DNA from: Pseudomonadota bacterium
Lineage (GTDB): Bacteria; Desulfobacterota; Binatia; Binatales; Binataceae
Assembly (NCBI GenBank): GCA_021324885.1
Contig: JAJPIF010000022.1
Coordinates: 124,001 to 188,000 of the forward strand
Length of the DNA: 64,000 nt
Reading direction: 5' to 3'
The notes under the pieces are model-generated. The model was not told the DNA's origin, searched no databases, and was given only the letters and a program-made list of their open reading frames with translations. Shown here in pieces: positions 54,829 through 64,000 of this stretch; position 1 is the first letter of the stretch, and each line of letters starts with the position of its first letter. The position numbers were made by a program, and so were the translations under genes.

Positions 54829-55602
54829 GTGTTTGGCGATTTGGTCGCGGGGCGCGCATGCTGGGCCGCCTGCCGGAAAGCAAACGTGGACGCTGCAGTA
54901 AGAGCCTCAAGGGTGCAAGCCTGGTTGCAATGTGCGGCGTTGTCGTCCCTCATTTTGCTAATCCCGGCAATCGCCGCAGCGCAAAAAGACGCGGGGTCCG
55001 CTACCCAGGGCAGCTCCATCTATGCGCACAATTGCGCAGTCTGTCATGGTTTGAAAGGTGAAGGAAAGGTCGGTCCAAGTCTGCAGACCGTCCATAACCT
55101 TCGGCAAGTGGTGAGCATGGTCCAAACGGGCGGGACCATCATGCCGTCTTTTGCCCGGCGCCTTTCAGCCGACCAGATAAAAGACGTGGCCCTCTATGTC
55201 ACGCGTCAGCTCGCGACGGTGTCGATGTCCGGAGGTAATCTCGCCGATGGAGGTGTTCTCTTCCGCCTGTATTGTGCGCCATGTCATGGGACAGCGGCGC
55301 GGGGAGGAGCGCTGGCGTTTGCGAAAGTGAATGCACCGGCTCTGACCGGCTTGAGCGGGGCCACTATAGCCTGGGCGGTACGCTCAGGACCGGGGCCGAT
55401 GCCCGTTTTTCCCAGCTCGGTGATCGGGGAAAAGGACCTCTCCTCAATTGCGAGGTATGTGGAGTTCGTGCAGCAGCCGCCCCATCCCGGCGGATTTCCC
55501 TTGCACTACTATGGGCCGGTTGCAGAAGGTTTCGTCGCTGTACTTGTAGTGATTTTTTTAGCTGTGATTGCACTTTGGATTGAGGACAAGGGCAGAGGAT
55601 GA
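54829..55602 (+). CDS. Dihaem cytochrome c subunit (QcrC-like) of a cytochrome bcc complex
   Basis: Up to 257 residues, starting at GTG 54829 or possibly GTG 54913, which gives a cleaner signal peptide (hydrophobic SSLILLIPAIAAA). Two c-type haem sites are present: CAVCH near residue 68 and CAPCH near 148, each followed by a typical cytochrome c domain (GLKGEG, AARGG). A C-terminal membrane segment (VAVLVVIFLAVIALWI) anchors it. A dihaem cytochrome c with a C-terminal anchor next to a Rieske and a cytochrome b gene is the QcrC arrangement of actinobacteria. It is coupled to the Rieske gene by ATGA. Confidence 0.88.
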   Translation: MFGDLVAGRACWAACRKANVDAAVRASRVQAWLQCAALSSLILLIPAIAAAQKDAGSATQGSSIYAHNCAVCHGLKGEGKVGPSLQTVHNLRQVVSMVQTGGTIMPSFARRLSADQIKDVALYVTRQLATVSMSGGNLADGGVLFRLYCAPCHGTAARGGALAFAKVNAPALTGLSGATIAWAVRSGPGPMPVFPSSVIGEKDLSSIARYVEFVQQPPHPGGFPLHYYGPVAEGFVAVLVVIFLAVIALWIEDKGRG

Positions 55603-56474
55603 CCGGGGACCAGCAGGGAAACAACCGCGAAGCGAGCGAAGGTTCGGGCAGCTTCCTGGTAACTGCGGCTTTTTTGATCGCCGTTGCCGGCGGGATCGCA
55701 TTCCTCTACGCCTACTGGACAAGCGCGAACAACCTGTTTCTGGGTGTTGCTTTGGCGGTGATGTTAGGTGGCGTGGGATGCGGGCTGGTGATCTGGGCTC
55801 ATCGCCTGATGGAGAATGAAGAAGTAACTGGTCCCCGCGAGCCGCTGGAGTCGAGCATCGAGGAAAGAGAGCTTCTGTTGGAGGATTTCCTCGGCGGTGA
55901 GCAGCGCATTGGGCGGCGGCGATTGCTCGGCTGGATGGTGGTCGCGGTCACCTCGACGCTGGCGGCCGCCTTTGTTTCAGTGCTGAGATCGTTTGGACAA
56001 GCGCCCACGCCGGTGCTCAAAAAAGCTGCATGGAAGCGCGGAGATCGTCTGGTGACAGCCGAGGGCAAGCCGGTTTCGGTTGACGCTTTGGATTTGGGGA
56101 GCGCGATTGCCGTATTCCCGGAAAACCGCGTTGGGTCGCTCGCCGCGCAGACGCTGCTAATCCGGGTAAAAGCGGACTTGCTGCGGCTGCCCAAAGAGCG
56201 AGAGAACTGGGCGCCCAATGGCAACGTGGCTTTTTCGCGAATCTGTACTCATGCCGGGTGTCCTATTGGCCTGTACGAGACCAGGGAACACTTGCTGCTA
56301 TGTCCCTGTCACCAATCGACTTTCAATGTTCTTGCCGCCGCCGCACCAACTTCCGGACCAGCAGCGCGAGCGCTGCCGCAATTGCCCTTATACGTCGACG
56401 ATCAGAAAAACTTGCGGGCTGCGGGAGACTTCAGCGAGCCACCTGGCCCTGGTTTCTGGAACCTGCCGTCATGA
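55599..56474 (+). CDS. Rieske iron-sulfur subunit with extra membrane segments (QcrA-like)
   Basis: 291 residues. Two N-terminal hydrophobic segments (TAAFLIAVAGGIAFLYAYW and FLGVALAVMLGGVGCGLVIW) and a third (GWMVVAVTSTLAAAFVSVL) precede the periplasmic domain. The Rieske [2Fe-2S] ligands are CTHAGC near residue 212 and CPCHQS near 232. Three membrane segments, rather than one, is the QcrA pattern of actinobacterial bcc complexes. ATGA overlaps join it to the cytochrome c before and the cytochrome b after. Confidence 0.9.
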   Translation: MTGDQQGNNREASEGSGSFLVTAAFLIAVAGGIAFLYAYWTSANNLFLGVALAVMLGGVGCGLVIWAHRLMENEEVTGPREPLESSIEERELLLEDFLGGEQRIGRRRLLGWMVVAVTSTLAAAFVSVLRSFGQAPTPVLKKAAWKRGDRLVTAEGKPVSVDALDLGSAIAVFPENRVGSLAAQTLLIRVKADLLRLPKERENWAPNGNVAFSRICTHAGCPIGLYETREHLLLCPCHQSTFNVLAAAAPTSGPAARALPQLPLYVDDQKNLRAAGDFSEPPGPGFWNLPS

Positions 56475-57769
56475 TCAGGCGAATTGTTCGTGGGCTGGAT
56501 TCGCGTCTGCGGCTGGCGGCGTTGATGCGGCACAGCCTGGACCATATCTTCCCCGACCATTGGTCCTTCATGCTCGGCGAGATCGCGCTGTATTGCTTCA
56601 TAGTGCTGGTCATCACCGGGGTTTTCCTGATGATGTTCTTCAATGCCAGCGCTGCCGCAGTGACTTATCACGGTCCCTACAAGGCCCTGGAAGGGGTGTC
56701 AATGTCGGCGGCCTATCGCTCGGTTCTGGATCTCAGCTTTAAGGTCAGGCTGGGACTGCTGATGCGCCAGATCCATCACTGGGCCGCATTGGTGTTCATA
56801 GCAGCGATTGTGGCGCATATGTTCCGCGTCTTTTTTACGGCCGCCTACCGCCGTCCTCGCGACATTAACTGGGTTATCGGCGTGACCTTGCTTATCCTCG
56901 CGATGGCTAATGGCTTTTTCGGGTATTCGGTCCCGGATGATGTTCTTTCCGGGACCGGTGTGCGCGTGGCCTATTCGATTGTGCTTTCGATCCCGGTGAT
57001 CGGTCCGTGGCTGGCGTTCATTGTTTTCGGCGGCAGGGTGCCAACCGAGGTGATGATACCGCGCATGTATGGCCTGCACGTATTTGTGCTCCCCGCCATC
57101 ATCTTGGCGTTGCTGATCTCACATCTGGCGATTATCTGGCGGCAGTTGCACACCAACTATCCCGGCCGGGGACGTTCCGATCGGACAATCGTCGGTTCGC
57201 GCCTATGGCCCACTTATGCGGCTAAGGCCATCGGATTGTTCTTTCTCGTTTTTGCAGTGCTGGCTGCCCTTGGCGGCAGCGTCGAAATCAATCCCGTTTG
57301 GATATACGGTCCGTACAAACCAGCGGATGCCTTGCCCGCGGCTCAACCGGATTGGTACCTGGGTTGGGCTGAGGGAGGCCTGCGGCTTTTCCCGTCTTTC
57401 AATCTTCACATTTGGAATCGGCTGGTTCCCGAAGTTTTTTTTCCGGGCGTACTGCTGCCGCTGCTGCTTTTCGCGCTGCTCTATGTTTATCCGTTCATCG
57501 ATCGTTGGGTTACCGGCGATCACGAGCAACACCATGTGCTGCTTCTTCCTTACCAGCAGCCTCTGCGGACGGCGCTGGGCTGCGCCGCCCTAGCGTTCAT
57601 GTCGGTCATATTCGTCGCTGGCAGTGACGACGTGATCGCGGTGGTCACCGGAAGATCCGTAGTCGCGATTCGAACGGCCCTCCGTGTCGCCGTGTTCATC
57701 GCGCCTGTTGTCGCCGCGCTGGTTGCCTGGGTGACGTGCAAGCTGCTGAATATTCGCCACGCCGATTGA
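56471..57769 (+). CDS. Cytochrome b subunit of a bcc complex (QcrB-like)
   Basis: 432 residues starting at ATG 56471, overlapping the Rieske stop. About nine membrane segments. The b-haem ligands are H102 or H103 and H116 in RQIHHWAALVFIAAIVAHMF, with a second pair in YGLHVFVLPAI and LLISHLAII. The quinol-site motif is PDWYLGW. Fused b6 and subunit IV parts in one chain, with length above 400, fit QcrB. A longer frame opening inside the Rieske gene is not the start. It oxidises quinol and passes electrons via the Rieske protein and dihaem cytochrome to an oxidase not seen here. Confidence 0.92.
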   Translation: MIRRIVRGLDSRLRLAALMRHSLDHIFPDHWSFMLGEIALYCFIVLVITGVFLMMFFNASAAAVTYHGPYKALEGVSMSAAYRSVLDLSFKVRLGLLMRQIHHWAALVFIAAIVAHMFRVFFTAAYRRPRDINWVIGVTLLILAMANGFFGYSVPDDVLSGTGVRVAYSIVLSIPVIGPWLAFIVFGGRVPTEVMIPRMYGLHVFVLPAIILALLISHLAIIWRQLHTNYPGRGRSDRTIVGSRLWPTYAAKAIGLFFLVFAVLAALGGSVEINPVWIYGPYKPADALPAAQPDWYLGWAEGGLRLFPSFNLHIWNRLVPEVFFPGVLLPLLLFALLYVYPFIDRWVTGDHEQHHVLLLPYQQPLRTALGCAALAFMSVIFVAGSDDVIAVVTGRSVVAIRTALRVAVFIAPVVAALVAWVTCKLLNIRHAD

Positions 57770-58009: not shown

Positions 58010-59470
58010 ATGCGCTATCTGATCGCTGCGTTTGTGGTTTTCTGTCTGATTATGGGTGGTGGAGTGGCGGGCGCACAGGACACGTCCGAGCTCGAGCAAA
58101 TCAAGCGCGAGATTCGAAACATCAAGGCCGACGAAGATCGCGAACGCCAGCGCGATGAAGAGCTGATCGGCCAGCTCGAAAAGAAGGTCGAGCAGCTCGA
58201 GAACCAAAACCACCAGCTTCAGCAGTCGAGCAGCAAGCTCCAGGCCCAGACCAGCCAGCAATTTCAGGATTTGCAGCAGCAGATCAGCGCCAATCCTTCA
58301 CCCTCGCAATTCGCGCGGTCCTTTGAGGATTATCTGGGCACCCATCAGTTTACGCTCACGGGCGGGGTTGGAGGTGATTTCATTTACGATCGGCAGACGG
58401 CAACCAACACCTTCGCGCTGGATTTTGAACCCATAATCCTCTATCGCGTCACCGATTGGCTGCTGTTCGAAGGCACGATCGAGGCCAATCTGCCGGCCGG
58501 CGGCTCGGCGGAGTTCTCAATGCCGGTGGCGACGGCGCAGATTTTTCTGAACGACTACATGGAGATCAACGCCGGCATTTTCGATCAGCCGTTTGGCGAC
58601 TTTTACGAAGATCAGAGCCCGTTCTGGGTCAACCGTTTTGTGACGGCGCCGCTGCCTTATGGTGTCGAGGCGCTGGTCCCGCCGACCGATTTGGGCGTGC
58701 AATTGCGCGGCGGGGTGCAGTGGGGCGCGCTGGGCCAGGATTTCGACTACACGGTGTGGGTCAGCAACGGTCCGAGCTTCGCCCCCGATGTCCCCCAGCC
58801 CGTGGTGGGTCAGGCAGTCAACGGCGTCAACACGATTAAACTCAACACCAACGGCCAGGGTTACGGTGCGCGGCTCAGGGTGTATCCCTTTCCGCTGGAT
58901 TCCGGGTTCGGCCGCCTGGAACTCGGAGCGTCGACCCTTAACGGCAAATGGCTTGACGGCAACTGGTACAACGCCTGGGGAGTTGATTTCGCCTACCTGC
59001 GCGGCAGCCTTCAGGCGCGCGGCGAATATCTGGAGATGTATCGCCAGATGCCCAACGCGCACGCCGACAATCGTCAGGGATGGTACGTGCAGCTCGGTTA
59101 TTTCCTCAACCAGGTTCCGATTCCCTTTGCCCCCGAAGTGGTCCAGGATTTCTTTCATCGTCTCGAGCCGCTGGTCCGGTATTCGGGAGTCAATCAACGC
59201 GCGATTGTGGAGGACGAGGTTTCGACCATACCCGAAGTTGGGTTTAACGGCTCGCCTTCGATTTGGACGCCCCATCCGCGCGAGGTCGCGCTTGGCCTGG
59301 ATTACTGGATTGCGCCCTCGATCGTCTGGCAGAACGAGGTTGATTTGGAGTTGCCTGAAGCTGGCGGATCGATCATCTCATTTGCGGGCAGCCCCACCCC
59401 GACCATCACGCCCCGCGGCGCAACCCCCAACGACGTTAGTTTCCTGAGCCAGTTGGCGATCGGATTCTGA
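58010..59470 (+). CDS. Outer-membrane porin-like protein with a coiled-coil N-terminus
   Basis: 486 residues from ATG 58010, which has GGGGGACGG upstream and gives a clean signal peptide ending VAGAQD. (TTG 57947 with AAGGAG is an alternative.) Residues 25-90 are a heptad-rich coiled coil (LEQIKREIRNI, LEKKVEQLENQ, LQQSSSKL). The rest is a beta-barrel rich in aromatic and Gly (GTHQFTLTGGVGGDF, LLFEGTIEANL, GYGARLRVY) ending in a C-terminal Phe. This is the layout of phosphate-selective porin-like or OprO/P-related proteins. Its position between two cytochrome complexes is unusual. Confidence 0.75.
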   Translation: MRYLIAAFVVFCLIMGGGVAGAQDTSELEQIKREIRNIKADEDRERQRDEELIGQLEKKVEQLENQNHQLQQSSSKLQAQTSQQFQDLQQQISANPSPSQFARSFEDYLGTHQFTLTGGVGGDFIYDRQTATNTFALDFEPIILYRVTDWLLFEGTIEANLPAGGSAEFSMPVATAQIFLNDYMEINAGIFDQPFGDFYEDQSPFWVNRFVTAPLPYGVEALVPPTDLGVQLRGGVQWGALGQDFDYTVWVSNGPSFAPDVPQPVVGQAVNGVNTIKLNTNGQGYGARLRVYPFPLDSGFGRLELGASTLNGKWLDGNWYNAWGVDFAYLRGSLQARGEYLEMYRQMPNAHADNRQGWYVQLGYFLNQVPIPFAPEVVQDFFHRLEPLVRYSGVNQRAIVEDEVSTIPEVGFNGSPSIWTPHPREVALGLDYWIAPSIVWQNEVDLELPEAGGSIISFAGSPTPTITPRGATPNDVSFLSQLAIGF

Positions 59471-59485
59471 GCGGAGCAGACGCCG

Positions 59486-59764
59486 ATGAAAAGAACCATT
59501 ATCGTATTGCTGCTGGCCATAACAGCGTTGGGAGTTTGTCGCTCGGGTCTGGCGGAGGAAACCAGCAAGGCCGAGCAGCGGCGGCTGTTTCGTGAGGGAG
59601 CACGGTTATGGCCCGTGTACTGCTCGCAATGCCATAACGCGCGGCCGGGGTCGGAATTCGCTCCCTATCAGTGGAACATCATCATGATGCATATGCGGAC
59701 GCAGGCGAACCTGCCGGCTAAAGACGCCCAGGCGGTTTTGGAATATCTGAAGGCCAGCCGTTGA
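59486..59764 (+). CDS. Small monohaem cytochrome c
   Basis: 92 residues with a signal peptide (MKRTIIVLLLAITALGV). One CxxCH, as CSQCHNARPGSEFAP, follows a short helix. The motif and size fit a class I or S-type cytochrome. The sixth ligand is probably a Met in the IIMMHM stretch. It is 15 nt after the porin stop, likely in the same transcript. Confidence 0.85.
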   Translation: MKRTIIVLLLAITALGVCRSGLAEETSKAEQRRLFREGARLWPVYCSQCHNARPGSEFAPYQWNIIMMHMRTQANLPAKDAQAVLEYLKASR

Positions 59765-59841
59765 ACTACGGGAAAAACCAGCCCGCTTTTCCGTTGACGC
59801 CGGCTAGCAAGACCGGATCCCGATAACGAAAGGATTATTCG

Positions 59842-60201
59842 ATGAAGTTGTGGTGGCTGCCTCTTACCCTGATGATTGCGCTGATGCTTAACAGTGTCGC
59901 CCGCGCCGCCGGCCCTGATTTGGCTGCGGCAAAGGATAATTACATGACGTTTTGCGTCAAATGTCATGGACCGACGGGACAGGGCAACGGTCCGGCCGCC
60001 GCCACCCTTCATACCAAGCCGCGCAATTATACCGATTGCGCCCTGATGGCGAAGATTCCCGATGCCACCTTGTTCAAGGCCATCAAAAACGGCGGCGCCT
60101 CGGTCGGGCTGAGCCCTGAAATGCCGGCCTGGTCGCAGGCTTTTGATGACCAGGAAATCCAGGGCCTGGTCGCCTTCGTGCGTAGTTTCTGCCACAAATA
60201 G
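59842..60201 (+). CDS. Monohaem cytochrome c
   Basis: 119 residues with a signal peptide ending ARAA. The haem site is CVKCHGPTGQGNGP, followed by KPRNYTDC, and a probable Met ligand in PEMPAW. AAAGGA lies before the ATG. The stop is 13 nt ahead of the GltD-like start. It is a likely electron shuttle of the second complex. Confidence 0.88.
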   Translation: MKLWWLPLTLMIALMLNSVARAAGPDLAAAKDNYMTFCVKCHGPTGQGNGPAAATLHTKPRNYTDCALMAKIPDATLFKAIKNGGASVGLSPEMPAWSQAFDDQEIQGLVAFVRSFCHK

Positions 60202-60214
60202 CGAGGCGCGGACG

Positions 60215-62119
60215 GTGACACAGGAGGCAAAGATTGACGCCAGGGCGCGCGATCTTTGGTGGTTTCGCAAAAACGTTCCGTGTCTGGAAGCCTGCCCGGT
60301 CAAGACCGACGCTGGCCGTTATGTGCAGTTGATCGCGGAAGGCCGTTTTGCCGAGGCCTATCGCGTCGCTCGATCGCCCAATCCGATCGCGTCGATTTGC
60401 GGTCATGCCTGTGGGGCTCCGTGTGAGGACGCGTGCCGGCGCGGCAAGCTTGACGCGCCCATCTCAATCCGCGCGTTGAAGCGATTCGTCAACGAGCAGT
60501 ACGGTCCCGAATCGCTGTCCAACATCAACCTCGGCGCGATTTTGGCTGGTGACATGGCAGGTGGCAGCACCACCCCCGGTCACGGCGAGATGCTCCCCAA
60601 AGCTGGCCGCGATGACAAGGTGGCCGTCATTGGTGCGGGACCGGCCGGGATTGCCTGCGCGCACGACCTCGCGCTGATGGGCTACAAGGTGACCGTGTTC
60701 GAAGCGCAGCCCCATCCGGGCGGCATGCTGCGCTACGGCATCCCCACCTATCGTTTGCCGCGCGAGGTGATCGACAAGCAGGTCGAGGAGGTCGAGGGTC
60801 TCGGGGTCGAGTTCCGCTACGAAACGCCGCTAAAGCCGGGTTTCGGCATCGAGGAGATTCAGCGCCTCGGCTACCGGGCGACCTTCATCGCGGTGGGCGC
60901 GTCGCGCGGCCGTCAGATCCAACTTGAAGGCGGCGAAGCCGACGGCGTGATCAACGCGATTGACTATCTGTTTAATATCAATCGGGGCTACCGGCTCGGG
61001 GTCGGCAAGAAAGTTGTGGTGGTTGGCGGCGGGTTGGTCGCCATCGACGCGGCGCGCACCGCTGTGCGCGCGATGCTTCCCAGTCTGGCGATGCCGCCTG
61101 ACGAGGAGTCCGCCGTCGCGGCCGGGACGATGCGGGTGGCGCTGGACGCGGCGCGCGAAGCGGCCCGCCGCGGCGCACTGGAAGTGGTGGTGGTCAGCCT
61201 CGAGTCGGAACGCGAGATGCCCGCGATGCGCTCGGCGCAGGGGCGCGAAGAGATTCAGGAGGCGCGCGAGGAGGGGGTCAGCCTATTGCCCGGATGGGGG
61301 CCGCGCCGCGTGATAGTTCAAGGCGGCCGCGTCAGCGGTCTGGAACTGGTCCGCTGTGTGCGCGCGTACGACGAGAGCGGCCGCTTCCGCCCGCAGTTCG
61401 ATGAAAGCGAGCGCAGGACCCTCGCCGCCGAAACCGTGATCCTGGCGATTGGACAGGCGCCTGACCTTTCTTTTGTGACTCCCCGCGATGGACTCGAAGT
61501 TACGCCGGCCGGAACCTTGCGCATCGATCCGGTGACGCTTGCCACTTCGCGTCCCGGTGTTTTTGCCGGCGGCGACGCGGCTTTTCCGCCGGGACTGCTG
61601 ATTACCGCGGCGGCGCAGGGCAAGCTCGCTGCCCGCTCGATTCACGCGTATCTGACCGGACAAGCTTTGGGTTCGCCGCGGATGCATGTGGAAATCGAGG
61701 AGTTGCCGACCGACAGCTACGCGCGTCCGCCGCGCTACGAACAGCTTGCGCGCGCTATCCCGGTTGTGCCCTTGGCGCGCCGCAGCGGCATCACCGAAAT
61801 CGAATTGCGTTATTCCGATGAGGAAGCGCGCACGCAGGGCGAGCGCTGCCTGTACTGCCATATCCATCCGATCTACGACGGCAGCAAATGCATCTTGTGC
61901 AATCGTTGCGTCGATATCTGTCCCGAACATTGTCTGCACTTCGCGCTGACGGACGATCTAAAGGAAGCGGACCTGGCTGCAAGCGTGACGACACCGGCCC
62001 AGGGGTCTGGCAGCGTTTTTCTCTACGACGAAGATATCTGTATCCGATGCGGTCTGTGTGCGATCCGCTGCCCGACCTCGGCCATCATGATGGAGCGTTT
62101 CCGGTTCGAGGAGCGTTAA
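60215..62119 (+). CDS. GltD-like NAD(P)/FAD oxidoreductase with N- and C-terminal Fe-S modules
   Basis: 634 residues from GTG 60215 (GAGG upstream). The N-terminal region has CLEACPVKTDAGRY and CGHACGAPCEDACRRG, the [4Fe-4S] module of glutamate-synthase small subunits. The FAD motif is VIGAGPAGIACAHD near residue 140 and the NAD(P) motif is VVVGGGLVAIDAAR near 268. The C-terminal part has CLYCHIHPIYDGSKCILC...CVDICPEHC and CIRCGLCAIRCP, a 2[4Fe-4S] ferredoxin-like domain. GltD-type flavoproteins usually serve GltB; no GltB is here. Instead the next genes, 4 nt and 3 nt apart, are a Rieske protein and a cytochrome b, so it probably passes NAD(P)H electrons to, or takes them from, that complex. 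Confidence 0.9.
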   Translation: MTQEAKIDARARDLWWFRKNVPCLEACPVKTDAGRYVQLIAEGRFAEAYRVARSPNPIASICGHACGAPCEDACRRGKLDAPISIRALKRFVNEQYGPESLSNINLGAILAGDMAGGSTTPGHGEMLPKAGRDDKVAVIGAGPAGIACAHDLALMGYKVTVFEAQPHPGGMLRYGIPTYRLPREVIDKQVEEVEGLGVEFRYETPLKPGFGIEEIQRLGYRATFIAVGASRGRQIQLEGGEADGVINAIDYLFNINRGYRLGVGKKVVVVGGGLVAIDAARTAVRAMLPSLAMPPDEESAVAAGTMRVALDAAREAARRGALEVVVVSLESEREMPAMRSAQGREEIQEAREEGVSLLPGWGPRRVIVQGGRVSGLELVRCVRAYDESGRFRPQFDESERRTLAAETVILAIGQAPDLSFVTPRDGLEVTPAGTLRIDPVTLATSRPGVFAGGDAAFPPGLLITAAAQGKLAARSIHAYLTGQALGSPRMHVEIEELPTDSYARPPRYEQLARAIPVVPLARRSGITEIELRYSDEEARTQGERCLYCHIHPIYDGSKCILCNRCVDICPEHCLHFALTDDLKEADLAASVTTPAQGSGSVFLYDEDICIRCGLCAIRCPTSAIMMERFRFEER

Positions 62120-62123
62120 TTAA

Positions 62124-62582
62124 ATGGATAGCGATCGGCGCAAGGTGCTGCGATGGTTGGGGAAGGGATCCGTGTTCGCCGCTTTTGTAGCCCAAATCGG
62201 CGCCGCGGCGCGCGCCTTTTTTCCCAACGTGCTGTATGAACCGCCCACCACCTTCAAGCTTAAGCCCCCGAATATTTACCCTCAGGGCTACACCTTCGAT
62301 GCGGAACATCGTCTGTTCGTAATCCGGGCCGCTGCGAAATTCCATGTGATTTCGGCCGTGTGCACTCATCTCGGATGTACCGTTCAATGGCGCGGCACCG
62401 AATTTGACTGCCCCTGCCACGGTAGCCGCTTCGACCCCAACGGCAACGTGATTGCCGGCCCCGCGCCACGTCCCTTGCCCTGGTTCGAGGTCTCAGTCTC
62501 GCCCGACGGCCTGCTCGAAGTCGATAGCCTCTCGACCGTGCCGGAGGGCTCGGTGCTTACGGTACCGACGGAGAAAACCTAG
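62124..62582 (+). CDS. Rieske iron-sulfur subunit, second complex
   Basis: A 152-residue Rieske protein, half the length of the first one in the window. The N-terminal [21 protein letters not shown] is one membrane segment with Tat-like arginines. The [2Fe-2S] ligands are CTHLGC near residue 75 and CPCHGS near 94, with the Ser that raises potential. The gene starts 4 nt after the flavoprotein stop and ends 3 nt before cytochrome b. Confidence 0.93.
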
Positions 62583-62585
62583 TCC

Positions 62586-63887
62586 ATGGCGGCGGGCAGG
62601 AAGAGTTTATGGCGTCAGCTTACCTGGCCCTGGTCTCCTGACAGCGAGCGCGAGGCCTCGGAGGCGGTGGTCCGCAACCTGTGGCTGCACTGGTTTCCGG
62701 CCAAGGTGTCGATCCGCAGTTTGTCATGGGGATACAGCTTCTGGCTGGGCACCGTGGCGGCGTCGCTGTTCGTAATCCTGACGGTTACGGGCGTGATGCT
62801 GATGTTCTTTTACGTGCCGTCGGTCGAGCGTGCCTACGGCAGCGTCAAAGACCTGCAATACGCGGTGAGTTTCGGGCGGATTTTGCGCAATCAGCATCGA
62901 TGGGCCGCCGAAGGGATGGTGGCGCTGGCGTTCATCCATATGGCGCGGGTGTTCTTCACCGCCGCCTATCGCGGATCACGCGCGCTCAACTGGCTGGTCG
63001 GCGTCGTGCTTCTGTTAGGCACCTTGATGCTGTCGTTCACCGGCTACCTGCTGCCGTGGGATCAGCTTGCGTATTGGGCGATCACCGTCGGCACCAACAT
63101 CGCCAGCCAGGCGCCGGTGCTGGGACCGACGATCCATTACCTGCTGCTGGGCGGTCATTTCGTCGGCCAGCAGACGCTGCTGCGGTTTTATGTGCTGCAT
63201 GTTTTCTTCCTGCCCGCGCTGGTGTGGATTTTGTTTGCCTACCATATGTGGCGGGTGCGCAAGGACGGCGGCCTGGCGGGGCTTGAGCCCGTGCGCGCGA
63301 TGCGCCGGGCTGAACCCAAAGAAATGCCGCGCACCAAGAGTTATTCGCTGTTCGGTCTGACGCCGGGGACTTCGGTCGCCGTGATGAGTTCGATGGGACT
63401 GGAGGAGCGCGACCAGGTCATGTCCTCGCCCAATCTGACCCGGCGCATGATCCTGGTGTTCCTGATCGTCTTCAATGTCACCCTGGTGCTGGCGCTGCTC
63501 TTCAACGCGCCGCTGGAAGGACCCGCCAATCCATCCGTGACGCCCAATCCGGCCAAGGCGCCATGGTATTTCGTATGGCTTCAGGAGTTGGTGGCTTCGA
63601 CCACGATCCATATCGGCTCGTTGACGATCAGCGGCGGGCTTCTGGGCGGCATCGTGGTTCCCGGCGTGCTGCTCGCGGCGCTGGTTGCGTGGCCTTTTTT
63701 GGACCGGTCGCCTGAAGCGGCGCAAGGCGTATGGTTTGCGCGCTCCCGCGCCCGGCAAAACCTGGTTTTTGCGCTCATCACCCTGGCAATCATTGTCCTG
63801 ATTGTTGTCGGCCTTTATCTGCGCGGTCCCTATTGGCGTCTGTACTGGCCGTGGACCGCGCGGCCGGTCATGCCGCGAGTGCTGTGA
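62586..63887 (+). CDS. Cytochrome b subunit, second complex
   Basis: A 433-residue cytochrome b. The b-haem histidines are in [22 protein letters not shown] and in [33 protein letters not shown] is the family quinone-site loop, and the C-terminal part has [11 protein letters not shown] in place of the PEWY quinol motif. N- and C-terminal domains are fused as in b6 plus subunit IV. It differs strongly from the QcrB-like protein 5 kb upstream, so the two complexes are not a recent duplication. Confidence 0.93.
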
Positions 63888-63900
63888 GGGAGTGGATCGG

Positions 63901-64000
63901 ATGGAGGAGCGGCAGCAGGACTCGTTGGAGCGCCAGGACTTTGCCTGGCTGGTCATCATGTCGCTGCTGTTTTTCGCGCTGGTTGCCGCCGCGCTGTGGA
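63901..64000 (+). CDS. Membrane protein, 3' end cut by window
   Basis: Begins ATG 63901 after GAGGGAGTGG and reads MEERQQDSLERQDF followed by the hydrophobic WLVIMSLLFFALVAAAL to the window edge. It starts 13 nt after cytochrome b and is probably a further subunit of that complex. Too short for identification. Confidence 0.6.
   Translation, partial: MEERQQDSLERQDFAWLVIMSLLFFALVAAALW

Follow-up and report, generated by a model that had tools for sequence, protein, structure and literature searches.

The 64,000-nucleotide window analyzed here (contig JAJPIF010000022.1 of assembly GCA_021324885.1, positions 124,001 to 188,000) comes from a soil bacterium of the Binatia, and it ends in a block of same-strand genes that encode a GltD/NfnA-like flavoprotein together with a Rieske protein, a cytochrome b and several cytochromes c (Table 1). 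The flavoprotein gene follows that of the second small cytochrome c after 13 nt and is separated by 4 nt from the Rieske gene, which in turn lies 3 nt from the cytochrome b gene; a further 13 nt separate the latter from the gene of a tetrahaem cytochrome c. A first-pass annotation of this DNA had described the flavoprotein as tightly set between a cytochrome c and a Rieske-cytochrome b pair. The tight spacing stands, but the small cytochromes c are two, not one. That annotation had also noted that the last gene is cut off and that the complex may hold more subunits. Extension of the contig past 64 kb showed the gene cut off at the window end to be that of the tetrahaem cytochrome c, with which the block ends; cytochrome b is encoded in full within the window. 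The open reading frame (ORF) that follows was judged by eye to be glycosidase-like.

Table 1. Genes of the flavoprotein-Rieske/cytochrome b block (window coordinates)
Feature	Position	Strand	Characteristics
Porin-like outer-membrane protein	58010..59470	+	Weak Porin_O_P match; opens the block in Binatia; same place in L041-L048
Small monohaem cytochrome c A	59486..59764	+	Signal peptide, one CxxCH; weak Cytochrome_CBB3 match, below cut-off; kept in L041-L048
Small monohaem cytochrome c B	59842..60201	+	Signal peptide, one CxxCH; kept in L041-L048
GltD/NfnA-like FAD/NAD flavoprotein, 634 aa	60215..62119	+	GTG start; Pfam Fer4_20, Pyr_redox_2, Fer4_7
Rieske [2Fe-2S] protein	62124..62582	+	Pfam Rieske; RR-type N-terminal anchor; CTHLGC and CPCHGSRF motifs
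Single-chain b6/subunit-IV-type cytochrome b, 433 aa	62586..63887	+	Pfam Cytochrome_B/Cytochrom_B_C
Transmembrane-anchored tetrahaem cytochrome c	63901-64824 (in window 63901..64000)	+	Pfam Cytochrom_C; CxxCH at residues 81, 121, 169, 197

The three Pfam matches of the flavoprotein bear out its earlier description as a GltD-type protein with N- and C-terminal Fe-S modules, and its C-terminal Fer4_7 domain is of the 2x[4Fe-4S] type. No NCBIfam model scored above its cut-off, the best being the generic NAD(P)-binding PRK12771. An AlphaFold 2 (AF2) model built from 60 sequences reached a predicted local distance difference test (pLDDT) score of 88.9 and a predicted template-modelling score (pTM) of 0.89, and the closest solved structures were subunits of NfnABC and StnABC, followed by Nfn-L, GltD and DPD. 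In an alignment to Nfn-L, the RCLxC segment was N-terminal for Nfn-L but C-terminal for the flavoprotein (residues 522-559), so that C545/C548 could complete the first cluster of the N-terminal domain. The cysteines present would allow four [4Fe-4S] clusters, assigned by homology to C545/C548 and C23; C27/C66/C70/C74; C559/C562/C565/C619; and C609/C612/C615/C569 (numbering of the 634-aa protein). The cysteines required were invariant in 60 of 60 sequences, except for C62 (58/60), and the set agrees with the four clusters of the AlphaFold 3 (AF3) models of anammox homologues. Where NfnA and StnC have their Y-R-R motif, 58 of the 60 sequences read [S/C/A/M]-[L/I]-E, which suggests a preference for NAD over NADP. 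This comparison is based solely on the solved NfnA and StnC sequences, because the canonical GltD of the host, considered as a control for the NADP motif, was dropped on account of a different motif at that position.

A role as the small subunit of glutamate synthase (GOGAT) was rejected. GltD of that enzyme shares the FAD/NAD(P) fold with Fer4_20, but the window protein has an added C-terminal ferredoxin domain and no GltB nearby: as the first-pass annotation had noted for the window, the large-subunit gene gltB is missing, and it was found at none of 104 related loci either. The sole gltB of the host is located on another contig, adjoining its own gltD. It is also conceivable, though improbable, that the flavoprotein trades electrons mainly with ferredoxin or NADPH, as in NfnABC and StnABC, the Rieske/b core being its quinone partner. 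The closest solved structures and the C-terminal 2x[4Fe-4S] domain would agree with such a role, whereas the replacement of Y-R-R does not, and neither NuoF-like nor NfnS/ETF-like partner genes were found within the block. The bifurcating transhydrogenases share the flavoprotein fold, including the C-terminal Fe-S domain, but are soluble and operate with partner subunits, whereas the window protein occurs in a Rieske/b context. Since the ferredoxin-like domain is common to GltD proteins of the NfnABC/StnABC type, it is by itself no pointer to quinone coupling.

The genomic context of the flavoprotein was assessed by scanning a genome collection with the flavoprotein alignment alone, so that the neighbouring genes are an independent observation. 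The scan returned 520 encoding stretches, of which the best 80, spread over approximately 14 phyla, were retained. In 73 of these, the flavoprotein gene shares its strand with a Rieske and a cytochrome b gene at most 8 kb away. At the remaining seven loci (L064, L072, L091, L084, L118, L123 and L110), either or both of these genes are missing, and each locus adjoins a contig end, so that all 80 are compatible with linkage. The flavoprotein of relatives is thus neither associated with gltB nor freely placed, in line with the earlier reading. Groups with the unit include Acidobacteriota, Chloroflexota, Zixibacteria, Gemmatimonadota, Planctomycetota, Bacteroidota/Ignavibacteria, Nitrospirota, Desulfobacterales, Armatimonadota, Calditrichota and Chlamydiota. 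Most of these genomes are metagenome-assembled, and groups represented by a single bin may hold misbinned contigs; Acidobacteriota, Chloroflexota and Planctomycetota are each backed by many. Because of this recurrence, the block is far beyond a chance arrangement.

The linkage persists despite changes in gene order between lineages. Where R stands for Rieske and SUIV for subunit IV, the orders found were GltD-R-b-c, GltD-b6-SUIV-R-c (Chloroflexota), R-GltD-b6-SUIV-c and R-b-c-ccoNO-GltD. Pairwise divergence of the flavoprotein and of cytochrome b was correlated over 89 loci (r 0.90, against a maximum of 0.08 in 500 permutations), to which common descent contributes. Within the family of the host, the full flavoprotein was found in about nine of 35 genomes, and the members bearing it (L041-L048, some cut by contig ends) keep the entire order from the porin to the tetrahaem cytochrome c. 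In four other families of the class (L049-L052; 40-45% identity), the order GltD-Rieske-cytochrome b-multihaem c is kept. A different arrangement is that of 16 Acidobacteriota loci, in which the cbb3 oxidase genes ccoN and ccoO are placed between the multihaem cytochrome c and the flavoprotein; in L120 they lie further downstream than in the others. Such operons with a heptahaem cytochrome c (L124:1805-9920 and within L094-L131) include that of the cultured aerobe Occallatibacter savannae, and it is possible that they encode an NAD/quinone/oxygen supercomplex. Two further peculiarities were observed: in four Chloroflexota loci (L092, L093, L102, L116) the flavoprotein is preceded, at ~3.4 kb, by a second cytochrome b-like ORF (~780 aa, a single CxxCH), and in two Planctomycetota loci (L171:2874-6011 and L172:7667-12106) the flavoprotein ORF is extended N-terminally by ~400-850 aa, with a weak TPR match in L171.

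Homology links the window block to the Rieske/b complexes with an NAD(P) oxidoreductase subunit of anammox bacteria, which the first-pass annotation had named. A search of 392 Planctomycetota genomes gave a strong match in 37. Three loci (L164, L166 and L167) have the order Rieske-GltD-b6-SUIV-hexahaem followed by an octahaem cytochrome, which is the layout of Kuste4569-4574, and L163 (Rieske-b6-GltD-SUIV) was identified as the Kustd1480-1485 type; the Rieske proteins of L164 and L163 are closest to the crystallised Kuenenia subunits 9rk4 and 9rk3, respectively, and the octahaem protein adjoining L164 is of the Multi-haem_cyto type. Over the full length, the flavoproteins of L163-L167 share 37-41% identity with that of the window, and the window flavoprotein, cytochrome b and cytochrome c match their counterparts in L164, L166 and L167, the multihaem cytochrome c weakly. 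One Planctomycetota genome of ~2.1 Mb (G289) was found to carry two complete flavoprotein-Rieske-b6-SUIV-hexahaem sets (L168 and L169), each beside an octahaem ORF.

The window block thus shares with both Kuenenia complexes the flavoprotein, the Rieske protein, cytochrome b plus subunit IV, a multihaem cytochrome c and four predicted Fe-S clusters. However, the likeness does not extend to the split b6 and SUIV with a haem cN cysteine, which are replaced by one chain without this cysteine, nor to the hexa/octahaem cytochromes c, in place of which a tetrahaem protein is encoded. An HAO-like octahaem subunit (Kuste4574), present in L164, is missing from the block, which is instead preceded by a porin and two small cytochromes c, and the host is not an anammox bacterium. 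Judged by its sequences, the window complex is therefore a homologue of the proposed NAD(P)H-making anammox complex in a variant form, and not that complex itself, because its cytochrome b is a single 433-aa chain with W53 at the position of the cysteine.

Further details of the two core proteins were derived from alignments. Cytochrome b has the haem ligand pairs H104/H118 and H205/H220, the four histidines being invariant in 98 sequences, and a Qo motif of ten residues. Among the flavoprotein-linked sequences listed, a cysteine at the b6f haem cN position, where the window protein has W53, was seen only in L083 and the Planctomycetota loci L163-L170. The NCBIfam model closest to this cytochrome b is ExtP, and ExtQ matches its C-terminal part, both below cut-off. 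Its H35 and R225 align with His43 and Arg247 of Kuste4571, which were proposed on the basis of AF3 models to lie around an extra, interfacial b haem (PMC12954380); the spacing of the two residues is 204 in both L164 (H44/R248) and Kuste4571. The tuning positions of the window Rieske protein form an S/F pair, as in Kustd1480, for which a potential of +335 mV was measured (PMC12954380). The potential-raising Ser was kept in 80 of 81 Rieske proteins, and the best PDB matches of the window protein are again 9rk3 and 9rk4.

Taken as a unit, the block very probably encodes one membrane complex, for which we infer assembly and cofactor occupancy. A Rieske/cytochrome b core would carry the membrane-anchored tetrahaem cytochrome c on its periplasmic side, and the flavoprotein, as an FAD/4x[4Fe-4S] NAD oxidoreductase, would be docked on its cytoplasmic side. 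Quinol would be oxidised at the Qo site, from which a first electron would pass via the Rieske protein and then the cytochromes c, both tetrahaem and small, to an oxidase. The second would take the b haems and then the Fe-S chain to FAD and NAD+, instead of or besides reducing quinone; the parts found allow a chain quinol - bP - bN - Fe-S - FAD - NAD+ to be drawn. For anammox bacteria, Kartal et al. (2013) proposed a split in which one of the two quinol electrons is raised to NAD(P)+ while the other descends to an acceptor, for example nitrite; potentials and AF3 models of Hauser et al. (PMC12954380) support this proposal.

NAD+ reduction by quinol bifurcation is our first choice for the direction of flow in the window complex, held at about even chances. 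The high-potential type of the Rieske protein would fit this direction better. The missing cN cysteine, in most members including the window, may remove a site of quinone reduction, and leak to quinone was considered a far larger problem by Hauser et al. (PMC12954380). The cbb3 subunits of the Acidobacteriota operons would provide an oxidase for the downhill branch. Both the missing cysteine and this oxidase bear on the direction without proving it. Several points weigh against this reading. The AF2 model of cytochrome b, from 12 sequences, was poor (pLDDT 56.5) and was not used, the NAD preference of the flavoprotein is read from a motif, and the complex is known here from its genes. The reading of H35 as a signature of docking or of a haem in complexes that bear the flavoprotein was rejected: this residue is kept in 97 of 98 cytochrome b sequences and is conserved alike in the flavoprotein-less Rieske/b octahaem operons L208-L220, so that, as far as alignments can tell, it is no evidence for flavoprotein docking. 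Finally, the host possesses complex I and no RuBisCO was found in its genome, so that there is no obvious call for reverse electron flow; quinone-level donors such as hydrogenases or fatty acids (see PMC8262859) are a possible reason for extra NADH.

The gene-level nature of the evidence, the lack of specificity of H35 and the oxidase genes that separate the flavoprotein from Rieske/b in the Acidobacteriota form would also be compatible with a flavoprotein that is co-expressed yet soluble and never docks on cytochrome b. We regard this as very unlikely given the linkage over ~14 phyla, in several gene orders and with matched divergence, and given that the subunits of the anammox homologue are reported to co-migrate as one complex (Hauser 2025, PMC12954380, citing de Almeida 2016).

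The respiratory repertoire of the host bears on a further alternative. The genome, of 4.53 Mb in 30 contigs and with Candidatus Binatus soli among the nearest relatives, encodes several oxidases (four COX1 genes). With these and without a detected RuBisCO, the same complex may run in reverse, a less probable but plausible reading in which NADH would reduce the flavoprotein, the b haems and then quinone on the cytoplasmic side, and quinol would be reoxidised via the Rieske protein and cytochrome c. The result would be an NADH:cytochrome c oxidoreductase, likened to cyclic flow through FNR and b6f, and ccoN/ccoO of the Acidobacteriota operons would complete an NADH-to-oxygen chain. However, complex I conserves more energy, a ground on which Hauser et al. 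(PMC12954380) rejected reversed flow for Kuenenia, and the loss of the cN cysteine and the high-potential Rieske type suit bifurcation better.

The host genome contains two further cytochrome b genes, each paired with a Rieske gene. Directly upstream of the porin, a second bc complex of the actinobacterial QcrCAB type (54829-57769; dihaem c, Rieske, cytochrome b) is encoded, which had no match at the same place in two congeneric genomes (L041, L042). The third cytochrome b (L225:5287-6774) carries a fused cytochrome c domain at its C-terminus and is encoded near a COX1 gene. In the published description of the respiratory chain of Binatota (PMC8262859), the components are complexes I, II and IV plus alternative complex III, and the text is silent on a Rieske protein or cytochrome b.

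Other known systems share part of the block. The octahaem operon of Nitrospina, Methylomirabilis and Kuenenia (Luecker 2013, PMC3578206) has a related Rieske protein and a b6-type cytochrome b with an N-terminal LH motif, as in the window, but it has no flavoprotein gene, keeps the cN cysteine and encodes an octahaem cytochrome c. Operons of this type, with Rieske, b6, SUIV and octahaem genes but no flavoprotein, were also found in Binatia (L216-L218) and other class members (within L208-L220), and a paralogue of small cytochrome c B (57% identity) is encoded ~3.4 kb upstream of that in L218. Geobacter ExtHIJKLMNOPQS (PMC5877670) likewise clusters a porin, cytochromes c, a Rieske protein and ExtP/ExtQ-type cytochrome b, but its published gene list is without a flavoprotein and includes a rhodanese gene, and it has many more haems. 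The marks of cytochrome b6f, namely, cytochrome f, split b6/SUIV and the haem cN cysteine, are absent from the window block.

No description of such a complex outside anammox bacteria was found in the open-access literature, subscription papers being outside the search. As far as this literature goes, the breadth of phyla, the fused cytochrome b form without the cN cysteine, the coupling to cbb3 oxidase in Acidobacteriota and the occurrence in a cultured host are new. We tentatively propose, at somewhat less than even chances, that quinol-driven NAD+ reduction by Rieske/cytochrome b is a widespread mode of complex III, present in ~14 phyla and with an acceptor that differs by lineage. If this is true, the high-potential branch would end in an HAO-like cytochrome in anammox bacteria, in cbb3 oxidase in Acidobacteriota and in the tetrahaem cytochrome c in Binatia. 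So far, a Rieske/b complex that generates NAD(P)H has been hypothesized for slow-growing anammox bacteria, which are hard to manipulate; with the module in many phyla, including the isolate O. savannae with its cbb3 subunits in the operon, this hypothesis becomes testable, and respiratory chains in abundant soil bacteria would gain an overlooked NAD-coupling site.

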